Source: a virus. From it: a stretch of DNA of 25,254 nt. Positions within the stretch are counted from its first letter, which is position 1; each line of letters opens with the position of its first letter. Of this stretch, positions 5,309 to 15,600 are shown one piece after another. Location of the stretch: positions 1 through 25,254 of the IMG/VR virus record IMGVR_UViG_3300042884_000644; one strand, 5' to 3'. The position numbers and the translations under genes were made by a program. The notes beneath the pieces are model-generated. The model was not told the origin of the DNA. It did no database searches and saw nothing but the letters and a program-made list of their open reading frames with translations.

Positions 5309-5599
5309 ATGAGACTTAAAGATTTATGTGATGTTAAGACCGACTTCCCTGATGCGGATTTTTGGATTACAAGAAAAGGCGATATTGATTCTGTAGGTAA
5401 ACCTACAAAAGAATTTGACCCTGAAAAAATAGGTATTAAAGTAGTTAGGACCGATTTATTGTTACCTGATTACTTATACTATGTGTTTGAGTTTTTGGTT
5501 ATAAATGGTAGTTTTGCCTCTATGTCTAGTGGTACTACTAAACTAAAAAACATCACAGTTGATGATGTTAAAAACCTACGTGTAGGTCAAAAAGATTAA
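5309..5599 (+). CDS. HsdS-like mini-protein (half of a type I restriction specificity domain)
   Basis: 96 residues. The N-terminal part has KTDFPDADFWITRKG (about 10-24), followed by an IGIKVVRTD strand and then LLPDYLYYVFEFL (51-63) and SGTTKLKNITVDDVKNLRV (74-92). The order 'vvR.d.l.pdYLyy.l...G.....s.GTT...i....l..l.i' is the recognisable core of the target-recognition domain of HsdS, the specificity subunit of type I restriction-modification enzymes. A full HsdS has two such domains and is about 400 residues; only about half of one is present and there is no HsdM or HsdR nearby, so this cannot be a working restriction system. A DNA-binding, anti-restriction or methyltransferase-partner role is inference. 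The stop overlaps the stop of the opposing gene. Confidence 0.5.
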   Translation: MRLKDLCDVKTDFPDADFWITRKGDIDSVGKPTKEFDPEKIGIKVVRTDLLLPDYLYYVFEFLVINGSFASMSSGTTKLKNITVDDVKNLRVGQKD

Positions 5600-5931
5600 T
5601 CAAATTTGATTCCGTCGGAGGACATTATATACCAATTTCCTCCGGCGAATCTAAATTCAACACAAGAACCGTTAGATATTAATAACTCATCCCAAGATTC
5701 ATCTATTCTACCCTTATCAGGTATAATCAAAACATTAGTCAATGATTTGATTTTTACGTGGTCAGTTGTTGTGGAATCTAATTTTAATTTACAATTAGGT
5801 ATTTGTCTAATTATAATAACATCTTCTCCTTTTGTACTATAAAATTCGTCAGAAACAATTGCAACTGATGATGTGTTTACTTCAAAACCATTTATGATTT
5901 TTCTTGTTGGTACTGTTCTAATTATTGCCAT
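5596..5931 (-). CDS. small beta-rich protein, probable virion component
   Basis: 111 residues starting at the ATG whose complement is 5929-5931, 1 nt after the stop of the gp13-like gene, so the two are probably translated together. The sequence is a run of short beta strands (VIIIRQ, CKLKLDS, HVKIKSL, NVLIIP) ending in CVEFRFAGGNWYIMSSDGIKFD-type residues (about 90-111). This 'g..v.f...gg.Wyi.ssdG' ending is common in phage capsid- or fibre-associated beta proteins. It may be a decoration or fibre piece attached near the neck. There is no catalytic motif. Its end overlaps by 4 nt the end of the convergent gene at 5309. Confidence 0.6.
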   Translation of the reverse strand: MAIIRTVPTRKIINGFEVNTSSVAIVSDEFYSTKGEDVIIIRQIPNCKLKLDSTTTDHVKIKSLTNVLIIPDKGRIDESWDELLISNGSCVEFRFAGGNWYIMSSDGIKFD

Positions 5932-5932
5932 A

Positions 5933-7045
5933 TTAAACGGTTGTGATTGGTTGTGGGAATGCTCTGTATTTTAATTGTTTGTTCAATGATTCGGCAATAT
6001 CTGCCTCTTTTTTCATTTGGTTCTCAGGACGTAATCTTTCTAATCTTTTCATTAATTCGTCTAAAAGAACCGCTTTTTCATCTTTGGCCTCTGTTGCCAA
6101 AGACGTGTAATCCATTTGTAATTCACTATCAGGAGTTTTTAAATTTCCTGAAAATTTACCTCTGACTCTAGCCAAAGTTTCTTTAGAGTACGCTGTGAAC
6201 CAACGTCTTACCCATTGTTTTGCGGGAACGTTAATGTCATCCCATGATAGACCATATAAAGGTATGTCTGAAGGTAATTTAACAATGTCAGGATTATCTT
6301 TTAAACATTGGTCACGGTCATCTTCACATGCATCGTAGTAGTAATACCAAACTCTACGTCTGTTTAATTCCATATTACCAAAATCAAATTTACCGCCAGG
6401 AACATTATATAACCAAACGGCCTTTTTACCACCCGGTAATGCCGTGATTTTATATGTTAAATCTCCACCAATCAATCTACTTTTAATATTTACGTCTTGT
6501 AAACGAGCCAACACATCATATCCTGAAAACATTGTGTATCCTCCACCACTTCCGACTTGAGAGAACCCGGCAGGTCCACCAACCCCATATCCACCAAAGG
6601 AACCAAAAGACCAAGGGTCAAACAACATACTATTTTGTTCTGCGGGTGTAAACCACAACAATTCGTTAATTTCACGACATGCGGGTATTTCATAAATCTG
6701 TTGGTTGGAAACCAAATCAAAATAATCTTTTTTCAATACCCAAGGACCGTCAGCCTGTAAACCAACTATCTTGGAATATGCGTAAGTGTATTGGGTTTCC
6801 CAATCTAATGTTCTTGTTACCAAAGCATTGGCTAAAGATTGTGTATCCAAGTCCAATCCATACAAGGATGTCCATTGAGATTCAATCAACCAATCAAGGA
6901 TGTATTGGGTATAATCATCAATTGCTAACTGAAGAAGAGAATCTAATTGTTCGTCTTCTAATTCAACACTTCTAAGTGGAGCACCTAACAGGTGTCTAAT
7001 ACGTGTGTAGAGTTGGGTTCTTTCTGGTTCTGGTATAACTGCCAT
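5933..7045 (-). CDS. neck protein, T4 gp13-like (head completion)
   Basis: 370 residues. The N-terminus, RTQLYTRIRHLLGAPLRSVE then LEDEQLDSLLQLAIDDY (about 9-46), is the helical opening seen in T4-type gp13 head-completion proteins, which have a 'lY..Vr..LGaP...veLtdeQ' pattern. The C-terminal part has WVRRWFTAYSKETLARVRGK (about 279-298) and a following FSGNLKTPDSEL stretch, also gp13-like. In the family this protein sits on the portal and, with gp14, seals the packaged head and accepts the tail. A Gly-rich stretch around residues 147-170 is probably a surface loop. T4 gp13 is about 309 residues, so this one is longer. It is on the minus strand, away from the gp14- and gp15-like genes on the plus strand. 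The start is 3 nt after a TATTTATT motif. Confidence 0.75.
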   Translation of the reverse strand: MAVIPEPERTQLYTRIRHLLGAPLRSVELEDEQLDSLLQLAIDDYTQYILDWLIESQWTSLYGLDLDTQSLANALVTRTLDWETQYTYAYSKIVGLQADGPWVLKKDYFDLVSNQQIYEIPACREINELLWFTPAEQNSMLFDPWSFGSFGGYGVGGPAGFSQVGSGGGYTMFSGYDVLARLQDVNIKSRLIGGDLTYKITALPGGKKAVWLYNVPGGKFDFGNMELNRRRVWYYYYDACEDDRDQCLKDNPDIVKLPSDIPLYGLSWDDINVPAKQWVRRWFTAYSKETLARVRGKFSGNLKTPDSELQMDYTSLATEAKDEKAVLLDELMKRLERLRPENQMKKEADIAESLNKQLKYRAFPQPITTV

Positions 7046-7056: not shown

Positions 7057-7068
7057 TCTGGTATTTAT
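7050..7068. repeat. ATAAATA-N5-TATTTAT inverted repeat between two minus-strand genes
   Basis: ATAAATA (7050-7056) and TATTTAT (7062-7068) are perfect 7-nt arms. One arm is the start signal of the gp13-like gene. The other reads as the same motif in the plus direction and would face antisense into the SOD-nuclease gene. The same design with a 3-nt centre recurs at 10440-10456 and 18287-18303. Confidence 0.55.
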
Positions 7069-8609
7069 GATATTGTATAAAGTAACGATTCTATTGGGAA
7101 TATATACTTACCATCCCCCAATGTTACGTTTTTATTATCAAATACACGGATACCAACTTTTTCACTTTCAAATATCATCCAATCAGTTCTATACTTGTGA
7201 ATTTTTCCTGATGAATAAACTTCATAAGTTTCTTCTTTGGTTTTCAATTGTTTCCAAAAAGGTTTGATTTGAGCACTATGATTTACACCATCTTTGATAA
7301 ACTTGGCATCATTTCCTTTAAAATCTTCTTGTTTTCCATGTCCACCTGTGTGGTCAACATTTTCAGGACCCAATAAAATTCTCATCTTTTCTATAACACG
7401 AGCCTCTCTTCTTTCACCCGCACCATAAATAATATCAAGAATACCCATAATGTTTTTGAACAAATCACCATCCATATTAAAAATGTCTTTCTTGAAGTGG
7501 TTTATTGCTCTAAGGTAACGTTCAAATTCAGCGTTTTTAATCTCATCGTTATCTGCGGTTAAAAATGTAAAAGGTTCTCTACCCAATGAAACAACTTTCT
7601 TGTTTATTTCTTCGGCCAAGTAACAGAACACCGCAATATTTGTATTCCAGTTATTGATAAGGGACCTTTTGTTTTCATCACCTTCTAAACCATAAACCCC
7701 TGAACCATACTCTTTGTTCGCCGCTCTCATTAAAGAACCAAAGAATTGTTGAACGTGTTTGTCAATTTGTTTTCTGTACTCTCCGTAAAGGGTTTCGTTA
7801 GAATTTAAAAAGTTTTCATACTTTTTTGTTGTCTGTGCTGGACACATTGTTGGTTTCATATCCTCAAAAATAAGCGTTTTGGCTGACTCTTGCAATGGAA
7901 TCTTTAATCTACTTTTCAACGAGTTTTCCACAAAGTCCCAATTTACTACATTCCAAAAGTTCTTGATGTACTCATCTCTTTTGTTTCTATATCTCAGGTA
8001 GTAAGCGTGTTCCCACAAATCTAAACCAAGTAATGGATAACCCCCACCTTCAATAACATTCATTAAAGGATTGTCTTGATTTGAGGTTGACATAATTTTC
8101 AATTTCTCATCATCAGTTAAAATCAACCACACCCAACCTGAACCAAATCTTTCTTTGGCAACACCCTCAAATCTCTTTTTGAATAGGGGTAACGAACCAA
8201 AGTTTTTTGTAATGTGTTTCATGATTAAACCACGAGGAGACATTTTCTTTGGGGTCAACATGTTCCAAAATAATTGGTGGTTGTAGGCCCCACCCGCATT
8301 ATTTCTAACTGTCTTGTTGAACCTTTTGATTCCTTTAACAATTTTTTCCAAATCGTCAGGGGCATCTTTGTTTTCAAGTGCGGTGTTTAATTTATCAACA
8401 TAACCCTTGTAATGTTTGTTGTAATGAACATCCATTGTTTCGGGGTCAATAAATTTTTTTAAAGAATCATAACCGTATGGTAATTTTTCTATTTTGATTT
8501 TTCTGGCTTCGTTTACGGCTTTCTCGTTTCTTCTCTTCGTTTCCTTTACCGTCTCTTTCATTAGAATTTCTTCTTCTAATTCTTGAACTCTATTCACTAA
8601 ATTTTTCAT
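7065..8609 (-). CDS. superoxide dismutase (Mn-type) fused to a PD-(D/E)XK-like nuclease domain
   Basis: 514 residues. After a charged coiled-coil-like N-terminus (1-40), residues about 43-232 are a near-complete Fe/Mn superoxide dismutase: LPYGYDSL (43-50), VHYNKHYKGY (61-70), NNAGGAYNHQLFW (103-115), STSNQDNPL (174-182), LGLDLWEHAYYL (194-205), FWNVVNW (218-224). All four metal ligands are present (H62, H111, D197, H201). G107 and Q178 follow the Mn-type pattern. Residues about 250-390 are an unassigned helical region. Residues about 398-514 look like a PD-(D/E)XK nuclease core: RREARVIEKM helix, HTGGHG, EDFKGNDA (D434), AQIKPF (Q447, K449), then TDWMIF and GIRVF strands. Catalytic status of either half is untested. 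It sits 47 nt after the SNF2 helicase gene and its 3' end abuts the gp13-like gene. Separate SODs are about 200 residues. Confidence 0.82.
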   Translation of the reverse strand: MKNLVNRVQELEEEILMKETVKETKRRNEKAVNEARKIKIEKLPYGYDSLKKFIDPETMDVHYNKHYKGYVDKLNTALENKDAPDDLEKIVKGIKRFNKTVRNNAGGAYNHQLFWNMLTPKKMSPRGLIMKHITKNFGSLPLFKKRFEGVAKERFGSGWVWLILTDDEKLKIMSTSNQDNPLMNVIEGGGYPLLGLDLWEHAYYLRYRNKRDEYIKNFWNVVNWDFVENSLKSRLKIPLQESAKTLIFEDMKPTMCPAQTTKKYENFLNSNETLYGEYRKQIDKHVQQFFGSLMRAANKEYGSGVYGLEGDENKRSLINNWNTNIAVFCYLAEEINKKVVSLGREPFTFLTADNDEIKNAEFERYLRAINHFKKDIFNMDGDLFKNIMGILDIIYGAGERREARVIEKMRILLGPENVDHTGGHGKQEDFKGNDAKFIKDGVNHSAQIKPFWKQLKTKEETYEVYSSGKIHKYRTDWMIFESEKVGIRVFDNKNVTLGDGKYIFPIESLLYTIS

Positions 8610-8640: not shown

Positions 8641-8657
8641 ACACGACTTTGTTATTT
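8636..8657 (-). repeat. hairpin between helicase and SOD-nuclease genes
   Basis: AAATAACA (8636-8643) and TGTTATTT (8650-8657) form a perfect 8-bp inverted repeat with a 6-nt loop, starting in the helicase stop codon. On the minus strand no long T-run follows, so it is a weak terminator candidate or an RNA processing or stability hairpin. Confidence 0.45.
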
Positions 8658-10417
8658 TACCTAAGGTTATTGATTCTATCAAGAATTTCTGAAGCAGTAG
8701 TCCCATTATCTTCGGTACTAATTCTGTCTCCCATAATGGTTTCAAAAATATTTTTCTTCTTCTGAAGTATGTCATAAACAATCCCTTCTATTGTGTTGTC
8801 AAATATTGGGTAATAAACCAACACGGAATTTTTTTGTCCAATACGATAAGCTCGGTCTTCAGCCTGAGAGTGGTCTGAAGGTAAAAATGATAAGTCATTC
8901 ATAATAACAACTTCACCCGCAGTTAATGTTAAACCAACACCTGCGGCTTTGATATTACCAACAAAAACTTTAATTTTTTCATTGTTTTGGAATTCATCAA
9001 CGGCAAGTTGTCTTTCTTTTTGAGAACAAGACCCATCAACACGAACCGCTTGTTTTCCAAACTTTTCCAAAATTAATTCCAACGAGTTTGTAAAATTGGT
9101 GAACACAATAATTTTTTTATCTTGTTCTAAAACACTTTCAATTAACTCAATCGTTGCGTTAATTTTTTCTTTGGCAATGACCTGACGAACTTTTACAAGT
9201 TTTGAGAATTGTAATGTTAATGAATCCGCCTCACCACTTTTATCGTACCAATCATAATATTCACCCATAAGTTCTTCATACTCTTTTGATTTTAATCTCA
9301 AGTAAACGGGTGTAATAATTTTTTCAGGTAAATCTAAAATATTTTCTTTTAATCTTCTTAATACTTGTCTTTGGGTTCTTTCTCTTAGTTCATCTAAGTT
9401 TGAGGCACCACTCACGTTCCAAATCCTTCTTTTACCCGCTTTGAATTGAAAACCATTACAATATCTCTTTACGTAAGCCATCCAATTTGATGCCACGGGA
9501 GATTGAATAAGGTTCAATAAGTTGAAGTAGTTGATAGGTCTTGATGTAATTGGTGTTCCTGTTAATAACCAAAGTCGGTCAACAATCTTTACAAAGTCGT
9601 TGATTAATTTTGTTCTTTGTGCTTGTGCGTTTTGTATGTAATGAGCTTCATCAATTATCACCAAATCAAATTTGGACTTTAAAATAATGGACTCATCTTT
9701 ATTGGCAACATCATGGAAGTTTTTTATGATGTCAAAATTTATGATAATAAAATCGGCGTCTTCCCATTTCTTTCCATCAATAATGGAAATACTTCTGTCA
9801 GTATAGTTTGAGATTTCTCTTTGCCAGTTAATTTTTAACGACGCAGGACAAATAACCAAAATTTTCTTGGAACCTGTTTCTAACGCCCCAACCACAGTTG
9901 CAGTTGTTTTTCCAAGACCCATATCATCAGCCAAAATAAATCTTCTGTTAACAACCAATCTTTTAACCGCTTCTTCTTGGTGAGACATTAACGGACGATG
10001 AGAGTACTTTGAAAAATCAATTTCAACATCTTTAATTGAGTTGTCCTTTAACATTGCCGCTTTTGGGACCCAAAAATCAAACACTTCTTGTCTTTCAAAA
10101 AACTTTCCCCAAATATGAAACGATACATCTTTTTCAACTAATAATTTTTCAACATAAACTTTTGTTGGGATTTCTATATATCCTTTATCATCGGCAATTT
10201 TCTGAGCAAAGTATTGGTCAAGGTCAACCCATTTCTTAGCAACCTTTGGTGTGTTTGGTGAATAATTTACAATGTATTCGGCCTGAGACCTTGTTGGGTA
10301 GAATTTCTTATTTATGTTGAATTTTTGTTGTAGTTTGAGAATATAATTGTTGGCACCCGAATAGGTTTCCAAAATATTCAGTGCTCTACTTTCTATGGTA
10401 GTTAATACATTACTCAT
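8657..10417 (-). CDS. SNF2-family DNA helicase/translocase
   Basis: 586 residues with both RecA-like lobes. Motif I DMGLGKTT (165-172), Ia VICPASLKINW (188-198), II IIDEAHY (254-260), III LLTGTPIT (284-291); then in lobe 2, KIIVFTNF (435-442), VDGSCSQKER (460-469), AAGVGLTLT (491-499) and motif VI QAEDRAYRIGQ (518-528). The QxxDRxxRIGQ ending is diagnostic of the SNF2/Rad54/SMARCAL1-like branch of SF2. It uses ATP to translocate on double-stranded DNA and in phages is usually tied to recombination, fork regression or repair, as UvsW is in T4. Residues 1-140 are a phage-specific N-terminal region that I cannot assign. It is the first gene of a minus-strand run with the SOD-nuclease fusion next. 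The start is supported by the motif 21 nt upstream. Confidence 0.93.
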   Translation of the reverse strand: MSNVLTTIESRALNILETYSGANNYILKLQQKFNINKKFYPTRSQAEYIVNYSPNTPKVAKKWVDLDQYFAQKIADDKGYIEIPTKVYVEKLLVEKDVSFHIWGKFFERQEVFDFWVPKAAMLKDNSIKDVEIDFSKYSHRPLMSHQEEAVKRLVVNRRFILADDMGLGKTTATVVGALETGSKKILVICPASLKINWQREISNYTDRSISIIDGKKWEDADFIIINFDIIKNFHDVANKDESIILKSKFDLVIIDEAHYIQNAQAQRTKLINDFVKIVDRLWLLTGTPITSRPINYFNLLNLIQSPVASNWMAYVKRYCNGFQFKAGKRRIWNVSGASNLDELRERTQRQVLRRLKENILDLPEKIITPVYLRLKSKEYEELMGEYYDWYDKSGEADSLTLQFSKLVKVRQVIAKEKINATIELIESVLEQDKKIIVFTNFTNSLELILEKFGKQAVRVDGSCSQKERQLAVDEFQNNEKIKVFVGNIKAAGVGLTLTAGEVVIMNDLSFLPSDHSQAEDRAYRIGQKNSVLVYYPIFDNTIEGIVYDILQKKKNIFETIMGDRISTEDNGTTASEILDRINNLR

Positions 10418-10438
10418 ACAATATTACAGAATAATAAT

Positions 10439-10446
10439 CATAAATA
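10439..10446 (-). promoter_or_regulatory. TATTTATG start-signal motif, SNF2 helicase
   Basis: On the minus strand TATTTATG is 21 nt before the helicase ATG. It is back-to-back with the plus-strand copy at 10450-10457, making a compact divergent control site. Confidence 0.5.
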
Positions 10447-10456
10447 AGGTATTTAT
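10440..10456. repeat. ATAAATA-AGG-TATTTAT divergent dyad
   Basis: Perfect 7-nt arms (10440-10446, 10450-10456) separated by AGG. Each arm is the start signal of one of two divergent genes, the helicase on the left and the 95-residue protein on the right. A single protein bound here could control both. Confidence 0.6.
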
Positions 10457-10457
10457 C
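10450..10457 (+). promoter_or_regulatory. TATTTATC start-signal motif, gene 10461
   Basis: TATTTATC is 3 nt before the ATG at 10461. This fixes the start of the 95-residue gene; the longer open frame from 10395 would run through the motif and the divergent control site. Confidence 0.5.
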
Positions 10458-10460
10458 AAT

Positions 10461-10748
10461 ATGAGTTATTTTAAGTCGGAAAAAGATGCTGAAAACGCCA
10501 TCAATAAATTTATGCCAATTATTTTGGGTAATTTAGGTAAGTTTTATTCTGTTAATATAACTTTAACTCCAACGGGAAGTGAAGACGAGTATTACGGTCA
10601 TTTAACATTTATAGTTAACGGTGATAGTTTCACTCAAAAACAATCCGATTCTCTTATGTCCTCAAGAGGTAATATATTAAAAAATATTAAAAAATATTTG
10701 GGAATTAAAATAATCATAAATCAAACATCAGTTACAACAGAAAAATAA
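10461..10748 (+). CDS. unknown 95-residue protein before the neck genes
   Basis: I do not recognise this family. The protein begins MSYFKSEKDAENAINKF and appears to be a small alpha/beta fold: helix (about 6-20), strands around YSVNITLTPTG (29-39) and YYGHLTFIVNG (44-54), then helices (about 57-81) and a short final strand. It has no signal peptide, membrane segment or cysteine. The frame stays open upstream to 10395 but I chose 10461: it follows the TATTTATC motif by 3 nt and starts after the divergent dyad. It is the first gene of the plus-strand tail block, and the gp14-like gene starts 1 nt after its stop, so a role in head-tail joining or its assembly is plausible but unproven. Confidence 0.7.
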   Translation: MSYFKSEKDAENAINKFMPIILGNLGKFYSVNITLTPTGSEDEYYGHLTFIVNGDSFTQKQSDSLMSSRGNILKNIKKYLGIKIIINQTSVTTEK

Positions 10749-12616: not shown

Positions 12617-15600
12617 ATGGCAACATCAAATAAAGTCTTCGTTTCACCGGGTGTGTACACTTCGGAAAGAGATTTAAGCTTCGTAGCACAAAGTGTGGGG
12701 GTTACCACACTAGGTATCGTTGGAGAAACAATCAAAGGTCCTGCCTTTGAACCAATCTTCATAACAAATTATGATGAGTTTCAAGCCTATTTTGGCGGGA
12801 CTCAACCAGAAAAATTTGTTGGAACACAAATACCAAAATACGAAGCGGCTTACATAGCAAAATCATATTTACAACAATCTAACCAATTATTTGTTACAAG
12901 AATTCTTGGTTTATCAGGTTATGATGCGGGTCCGTCTTGGTCAATAACTACTATTGCCAATGTAGACCCAGGTACAATTGGTTCTAACAATCCTGTGGCT
13001 ACCGCATGGTCTGTTCAGTATTCAGGAACAACAGGGTCATCATCAACTATTACATTTAACATAAACGGAACCACTCCGTTTCCAGCACCAATATTAAACC
13101 ACTTTGGAAGTTACACCACTTTTAATGGTGGTACATCAACTGTTAGTGGTGACATTCAAAATTTCATTTATACTATCGCAATAGATGCTATTGAAGGTTC
13201 AGGTACTTTGAGTCAGTCAATCGCATTTTACGGTAGTATTGATGACGATGATTACGATAACTTAATAGATGTTGACGGATATACACCACAGTCAAATGTA
13301 TTTGGTGTTAATGACGTTCAAATTGGATTAAACGATTTAGAAAGTGATACTAACGATTCTTGGTATTATGCAATGTTTGATAATTTGGGAAGTTGTAATT
13401 ATTCAGGTTCTTCATTCTTTAATGTTGTTCAAAACGTTACACCTATAGACCCAGGTTTAACAGGTTCTGAATTCTCAGGTGTTGTATCAGGTAGTTTGTA
13501 CACTTATTCAGGTGTATCATATTGTGATTATGACAACATGGTAGTTGCTACTTTGAGGTCAAGAGGTTTGGCAACATACGCAGGAACTAACACAGGTCCT
13601 AGTTATTATTGTACAGGTGCAACATTTGATTGTACTTCAGTACCAACATACGCTAATGTAAATAAGAATCCGTATTCAACATTTGCGGTAACAGGTTCAA
13701 CAATTGATAACACCACATTTAGTTTTGAAACATCTCTATCGGTTTCACAATCAAATTATTTAAGTAAAGTTTTTGGTAGAACTAACTTTGGTAAAGAACA
13801 AGCTGATGTTCCATTATTTTTGGAGGAAGCTTTCCCAACATTGTTAAACAATTCTTACAACCAAGGATATATTCGTGGATTAAATTGTAATTTTGTAGAA
13901 TTACCAAGTGCGAGAAGTAGTAGTTCAAGCTCTATAGCATATTACTTAGATAGATATAAGAGTGCTGAATCTCCATGGATTGTTTCTCAATTAGAAGGAA
14001 CTAAAGTAACAAAATTATTTAAGGCATTTACAATTTCTGATGGTGATTCATCAAACGTAGAAGTTAAAGTTTCTATTTTGAATATCTCTTTCAACAACTT
14101 AACATTTGATGTTGGTGTACGTAGTTATTCAGACACTGACTCAAACCCAGTTTATTTAGAAAGATTTGTTGGTTGTACTATGGACCCAGCATCCAACTCT
14201 TATGTTGGTAAACAAATTGGTAGTACTAACGGTGAATACGCTCTTCTTTCTAAATACATTATGTTAGAACTTAACGAAGAAGCACCTATCACATCGTTAC
14301 CATGTGGATTTGAAGGATATCACTTTAGATTATATAATAGTGTTACAAGTCCTTTCCCAACATATAAAACGGCTTACAATTACCCTAATGAAATTATCGC
14401 CAACCCTCCGTTTGGAGCGGCTTTTGGTGGTGATAATGCGGTATATAGTTCAGGTGACAAAATCAGACAAACTTTCTTAGGATTCTCCACAGCATTTGCT
14501 TACGGTTGGGACCCTGATTATTTTGCCTATAAAGGTATGAAAAATCCGGCAACTTTATGTCCTGGTACTGCAGAAGCGGAACCTTGGAATTATTTATCAA
14601 AAGGTTTCCACATGGATTCAGGAGCAACAGTTGTAACAATACCTGCAATTTATTCAACTTCAGGTACATCTATGTTTGATGTTGGTGCGGCTTCATTTCA
14701 ATCTGACCCAACAAATCCAAACGACCCATACTATACAATTCAATCACGTAAATTTACTTTCTTAGTACAAGGTGGATTTGATGGATGGGACATTTACACA
14801 AGAAAGAGAACAAACACTGATAGATTTATTATCGGTGGTTCAGGATGGGCTAATGGAGCGTGTGATATCTTAGGTAGATATCCTTCGGCTTCTGAAACAG
14901 GAATGTTCAAAAATATTGTAATTGAACAAGACGTAACTAACTGGTCAACAACTGACTATTACGCTTACTTGTTAGGTATTTACACATTTAACAATCCTGA
15001 ATCTGTAAACATTAACGTTCTCGTAACACCGGGTATTGATTATTTTAACAACTCTAATTTAGTTGAATCGGCAATTAGTATGGTTCAAGAAGATAGAGCG
15101 GATTCTTTATATATTTGTACAACTCCTGACGTAGATGTTAATTTACCAGTAGTAACTGTTGATGATATTATTTATCCAACACAAGCTGTTGATAATTTGG
15201 ACCAAACAGGTATTGATTCAAACTACACCGCAACTTACTATCCTTGGATTTTAGTTAGAGATACAGTTAACAATACTCAAATTTATATTCCACCAACAGG
15301 TGAAGTAACAAGAAACTTGGCATTAACTGACAACATAGCATTCCCTTGGTTCGCATCTGCGGGTTATACTAGAGGTTTGGTTAACTCTATTAAGGCAAGA
15401 TTGAAACTAACCCAACCACAAAGAGATACTTTGTATGAAGGTAGAATTAACCCAATTGCAACTTTCGCAGATGTTGGAACAGTAATTTGGGGTAACAAAA
15501 CACTTCAGGTTAAACAATCCGCTCTTGATAGAATCAACGTAAGAAGATTGTTGTTACAAACTCGTAAGTTGATTTCAGCGGTGGCTGCAAGATTGTTGTT

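Follow-up and report, generated by a model that had tools for sequence, protein, structure and literature searches.

The joining of a superoxide dismutase (SOD) to a nuclease in a single phage polypeptide, encoded beside a structural protein of the neck, raises the question of where such an enzyme acts and what the two halves do together. The window, i.e., the whole stretch of DNA analyzed (a virus record of 25,254 nucleotides, or 25.3 kb), contains the 514-residue SOD-nuclease gene on the minus strand (7065..8609; ATG start, stop codon at 7065-7067), as defined by the list of open reading frames and Pfam. Directly upstream and on the same strand, Pfam identifies the SNF2-family helicase (8657..10417, (-)) that the original prediction had placed there, and directly downstream, again on the same strand, lies a head-tail adaptor Ad2 or neck protein resembling T4 gp13 (5933..7045, (-)), followed by a small conserved gene that ends the run (5596..5931, (-)). 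The phage origin of the SOD-nuclease gene, also part of that prediction, is borne out; the window further encodes a contractile tail sheath (12617..15838, (+)), a tail tube (16833..17321, (+)) and a family B DNA polymerase. In the relatives' loci with enough flanking sequence, the order SNF2 helicase, SOD-nuclease, neck protein and small gene is conserved, apart from an insertion in a few of them, and the DNA polymerase lies on the strand opposite to the SNF2/SOD-nuclease/neck run. Two small window ORFs, 10395-10748 and 5309-5599 (+), have no clear family match, the former being kept in few relatives.

The SOD half (residues 39-231; 7917..8495, (-)) corresponds to a Fe/Mn superoxide dismutase of the Mn type, as marked by G106 and Q178. 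Profile searches recover both Pfam domains far over the curated cutoff, Sod_Fe_N at residues 39-118 (E 2.5e-21) and Sod_Fe_C at residues 126-229 (E 1.5e-38), and the closest solved structures are Mn-SODs (E about 1e-61). The metal ligands H62, H111, D197 and H201, three His and one Asp, and the Mn-type Gln, Q178, stand where they had first been read and are invariant in all 42 non-redundant relatives, as are H66, Y70, G106, N110, W115, W159, W199, E200 and Y204, with the Tyr/His/Gln/Trp second shell present. The dN/dS of this half, comparing the window with the relatives L005 and L006, is 0.02-0.06, far below 1. By its sequence, the SOD half looks catalytically intact, a complete Mn-type enzyme. 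It shares the full domain, with all ligands and the second shell, with bacterial and archaeal Fe/Mn SODs, being about 50% identical to those of Bacteroidota, but differs from them in its N-terminal helical extension, its C-terminal nuclease and its placement in a separate clade. The stand-alone SODs of Vibrio phage 2.275.O and Pseudomonas phage Callisto/PA5oct are likewise annotated as Fe/Mn SODs in phage genomes; nevertheless, they comprise only about 180-190 residues, are unfused, show 26-30% identity to the window SOD, and lie outside both the structural gene cluster and the fused clade.

A low-confidence linker (residues 236-251; 7857..7904, (-)) leads to the C-terminal half, which comprises (i) a helical middle domain (residues 252-380; 7470..7856, (-)) that is found with the nuclease in every SOD fusion and preserves the invariant residues R315, S316, N319, N322, T323 and N324, and (ii) a PD-(D/E)XK-like nuclease core (residues 381-514; 7068..7469, (-)) carrying E402, D434 and Q447-x-K449. 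Pfam, PHROGs, NCBIfam and PADLOC contain no family that convincingly names residues 252-514, the host-DNA degradation and counter-defence suggested at the outset being conjectural roles for this half. The AlphaFold2 model of this region is confident (pLDDT 92.7, pTM 0.87) and keeps the nuclease β-sheet core, the loss of which had been named in advance as grounds for giving up the assignment. The top Foldseek match in the PDB is the homing endonuclease I-Ssp6803I (E 0.002), and the best fold match by Z is the Holliday junction resolvase Hjc (Z 9.1, rmsd 3.4 over 104 residues), followed by the SPARDA, NhoI and DpnI nucleases, the leading matches all belonging to the PD-(D/E)XK superfamily. The α-β core fold is thus accompanied by the conserved E...D...[D/E/Q]-x-K residues of this superfamily: G398, E402, D434, Q447 and K449 are invariant in 42 of 42 non-redundant relatives, D434, Q447 and K449 standing where they had first been read and E402 being the helix Glu of the motif initially proposed. 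The model and the fold matches confirm residues 381-514 as a predicted PD-(D/E)XK core, with Hjc resolvases and I-Ssp6803I as its nearest counterparts. The dN/dS values of the middle and nuclease parts, 0.03-0.22 for the window against L005 and L006, are also far below 1, and the nuclease half looks catalytically intact, as predicted from its conserved residues. I-Ssp6803I and the SPARDA DREN nucleases share the fold, but lack the SOD and the middle domain and are 13-19% identical over the core. Gln-x-Lys is found in I-Ssp6803I as well. The Hjc-type resolvases have the core in common with the window nuclease, a similarity of fold only, without the extra helical domain and the SOD, and carry Glu-x-Lys where the window nuclease has Q447-x-K449.

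The pairing of the two halves is genuine, as first supposed, and old. A scan of IMG/VR disclosed 331 stretches encoding relatives, another, which used the C-terminal half as query, gave at least 568 matching stretches, and 161 IMG/VR relatives, all uncultured contigs, hold the SOD, the helical middle domain and the nuclease in one frame. These 161 come from many metagenomes, which rejects an assembly artifact and runs counter to the possibility, raised beforehand, that the halves are always separate genes. In a tree with Bacteroidota and other SODs, the fused SODs group together in a single clade (97/100 support); this distinct clade and the phage synteny also reject contamination with a bacterial SOD. 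As far as sequence comparison can establish, the fusion has a single origin and is universal in its clade. No SOD-only phage relative of the fused clade was seen among the IMG/VR ORFs examined, the SOD-only ORFs among those examined coming from bacterial and phage-collection comparison records. The phage-collection records OR845917, OR851122, OR850395 and similar, labeled as Escherichia, Salmonella or Staphylococcus phages, contain SODs 44-50% identical to the window SOD and have the appearance of pieces of bacterial host DNA. For the nuclease half, no bacterial homologue was found in genome contigs by pattern scan or in 395 Bacteroidota genomes, the latter a weak negative with no positive control, and tblastn found no match to the C-terminal half in cultured phages. 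A limited literature search retrieved no paper dealing with SODs of Far-T4 phages or with phage fusion proteins that include a SOD domain, and within that search the SOD-nuclease pairing was found described nowhere.

The capsid proteins of the longer relatives, the window itself containing no gp23, are nearest to those of Microcystis phage Mel-JY01, Flavobacterium phage immuto and Rhodothermus phage RM378. The carriers belong to a T4-related group of uncultured lake phages that is widespread and probably Far-T4-like, and their hosts may be freshwater Bacteroidota; the Far-T4 neighborhood around RM378 has been described (PMC4360716), and Far-T4 phages have been linked to Bacteroidetes (PMC7198788). 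The genomes of RM378, immuto and Mel-JY01 encode neither a SOD nor a full-length nuclease module, immuto giving one marginal module match (E 0.003).

Compared to the SOD, the nuclease is the changeable partner. In pairwise comparisons, the 42 non-redundant relatives share on average 73% identity in the SOD and 42% in the nuclease, and modules comprising the middle domain and the nuclease also occur outside the SOD context, either free or fused to a zinc-ribbon/L5 gp82 protein. One free module adjoins the SOD fusion in L053; another, L208:6104-7057 (+), is flanked by the prohead protease and scaffold genes, is confined to one lineage, a narrow contig group, begins MKITISE, and is missing from the same site in other relatives. 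The frame L240:2297-4915 (+), seen in five contigs, encodes 873 residues with two nuclease modules behind the SOD, both resembling free-standing modules more than the SOD-linked module of the sister L078. These sequences establish a constant SOD and a variable nuclease, swapped and duplicated behind the SOD in one lineage. A further protein of 480-505 residues, as in L026:4121-5623 (-), carries a copy of the nuclease module together with a zinc ribbon and an L5 gp82-like domain; it occupies the same gap in L027, L030, L040, L052, L059, L068 and L070, and in other phages this site holds just the gp82-like part.

The N-terminal extension (residues 1-34; 8508..8609, (-)), helical and variable, is proposed to be a capsid-targeting propeptide by analogy with the substrates of T4 gp21, the prohead protease that cuts after L/I-x-E (PMC9026906); in T4, short capsid-targeting propeptides carry proteins, including nucleases, into heads and then into hosts (PMC9026906). 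Of 42 relatives, 37 have [L/I]-x-E at the end of the extension and 40 have [L/I/V]-x-E, the middle residue varying; the motif is nevertheless short, and common descent links the sequences. The putative cut in the window would fall after E34 (V32-N33-E34|A35), with LEE at residues 11-13 as an alternative. This V-N-E boundary lies outside the strict L/I rule, the close relative L006 reads T-N-Q, and other LxE/IxE sites lie nearby; given the window and L006 boundaries, the case for head targeting stays at the level of a suggestion. Since [I/L/V]-x-E near N-termini shows only about a 2-fold excess proteome-wide, the boundary argument draws on conservation within the SOD-nuclease family. Among the relatives' 25 partial genomes, 7 encode Peptidase_S77, the gp21-type prohead protease, in a region that the window does not span, and the relatives' gp23-type capsid protein carries LINE|A near residue 61, like a gp21 site. 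The T4 internal head proteins IPI-III and Alt resemble most of the family in having an N-terminal helix ending at L/I-x-E and are processed by a protease of the type that the relatives encode; on the other hand, the SOD-nuclease extension is longer (about 34 versus 10 residues), the mature domains are different, and packaging is here proposed by analogy. The N-terminal helix could instead be an oligomerization element. The suggestion that the SOD fold serves as a virion or scaffold piece is accordingly sustained in part: the boundary, the gp21-type protease, the capsid site and the neck-gene operon point indirectly to a virion component, whereas the scaffold role gives way to that of a packaged enzyme.

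We favor, tentatively and at somewhat less than an even chance, a SOD-nuclease that is packaged in the head, undergoes processing in the prohead and reaches the next host together with the DNA. The protein comparisons establish the two domains, the intactness of their catalytic residues and a cleavage-like boundary; the route itself is argued from T4. The protein would be made late, together with the neck protein, and its N-terminal helix would bring it into the prohead, where the gp21-type protease would remove that helix by cleaving behind [L/I/V]-x-E, next to the SOD. Once matured, the enzyme would remain with the packaged DNA and enter the next host alongside it, the SOD there clearing superoxide around the phage DNA and the nuclease cutting a lineage-specific DNA target, which may be host DNA, a rival phage or a plasmid. 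It is possible, though doubtful, that the protein is a head-borne effector, in which a constant capsid-targeting tag and SOD deliver exchangeable nuclease cassettes with the genome, shield the incoming DNA from superoxide and cut competing DNA. A difficulty for this reading is that a nuclease packaged in active form would have to be controlled in order to spare the phage DNA.

The same evidence can be arranged around a late enzyme that stays in the cytoplasm unpackaged, with a Hjc-like nuclease serving recombination, debranching or packaging of phage DNA, a SOD protecting replicating DNA, and an N-terminal helix that only oligomerizes. The rank of Hjc among the fold matches, the position in the same gene run as the SNF2 helicase, and a search of 14 relatives in which no endonuclease VII or RuvC family exceeded the cutoff all fit this reading, which we nonetheless consider rather unlikely: the relative G003 does encode a RuvC-like protein (weak PHROG matches), swapping, duplication or far more variation than in the partner domain is not expected of a resolvase, and the [L/I]-x-E boundary is left unexplained. 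The Foldseek match to I-Ssp6803I, together with the sporadic module copies between structural genes and in the zinc-ribbon/L5 gp82 fusion, directs attention to a homing-type mobile endonuclease as the source of the module, inserted into a phage's SOD gene at its 3' end; on this view the fusion persists as a selfish or domesticated nuclease, with the SOD as the useful half. Sporadic presence, the mark of a homing gene, characterizes the free paralogues, but the SOD-fused module is found in every SOD-bearing relative of the clade, all 161, with a single origin, invariant catalytic residues and low dN/dS, and such a history is unlikely to explain the protein; in addition, origin and present use are separate questions.

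Improbable, in our judgment, is a function residing in the SOD itself, as an antioxidant keeping the host alive during infection or grazing, with the nuclease half as a DNA tether of little catalysis. The SOD is indeed the most conserved half, and the SOD genes known from freshwater phages have been interpreted as aids against oxidative stress (PMC6802176); nevertheless, a mere tether would not need nuclease catalytic residues invariant in 42 of 42 relatives. The locking of the SOD to a nuclease across a large clade, beside structural genes, makes a part in the virion or in DNA handling more likely. The usual interpretation of phage SODs is that of metabolic helpers. The SOD-nuclease makes it possible to ask directly whether antioxidant enzymes travel in phage heads, and the family displays a design with a constant carrier and a variable nuclease. 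Apart from this gene, recurrent N-termini such as MKKVIRLTESDLVRIVKRVI occur on different proteins (L214:8576-9040, L218:11489-12172 and L218:17438-17908 (+)), possibly another targeting signal.
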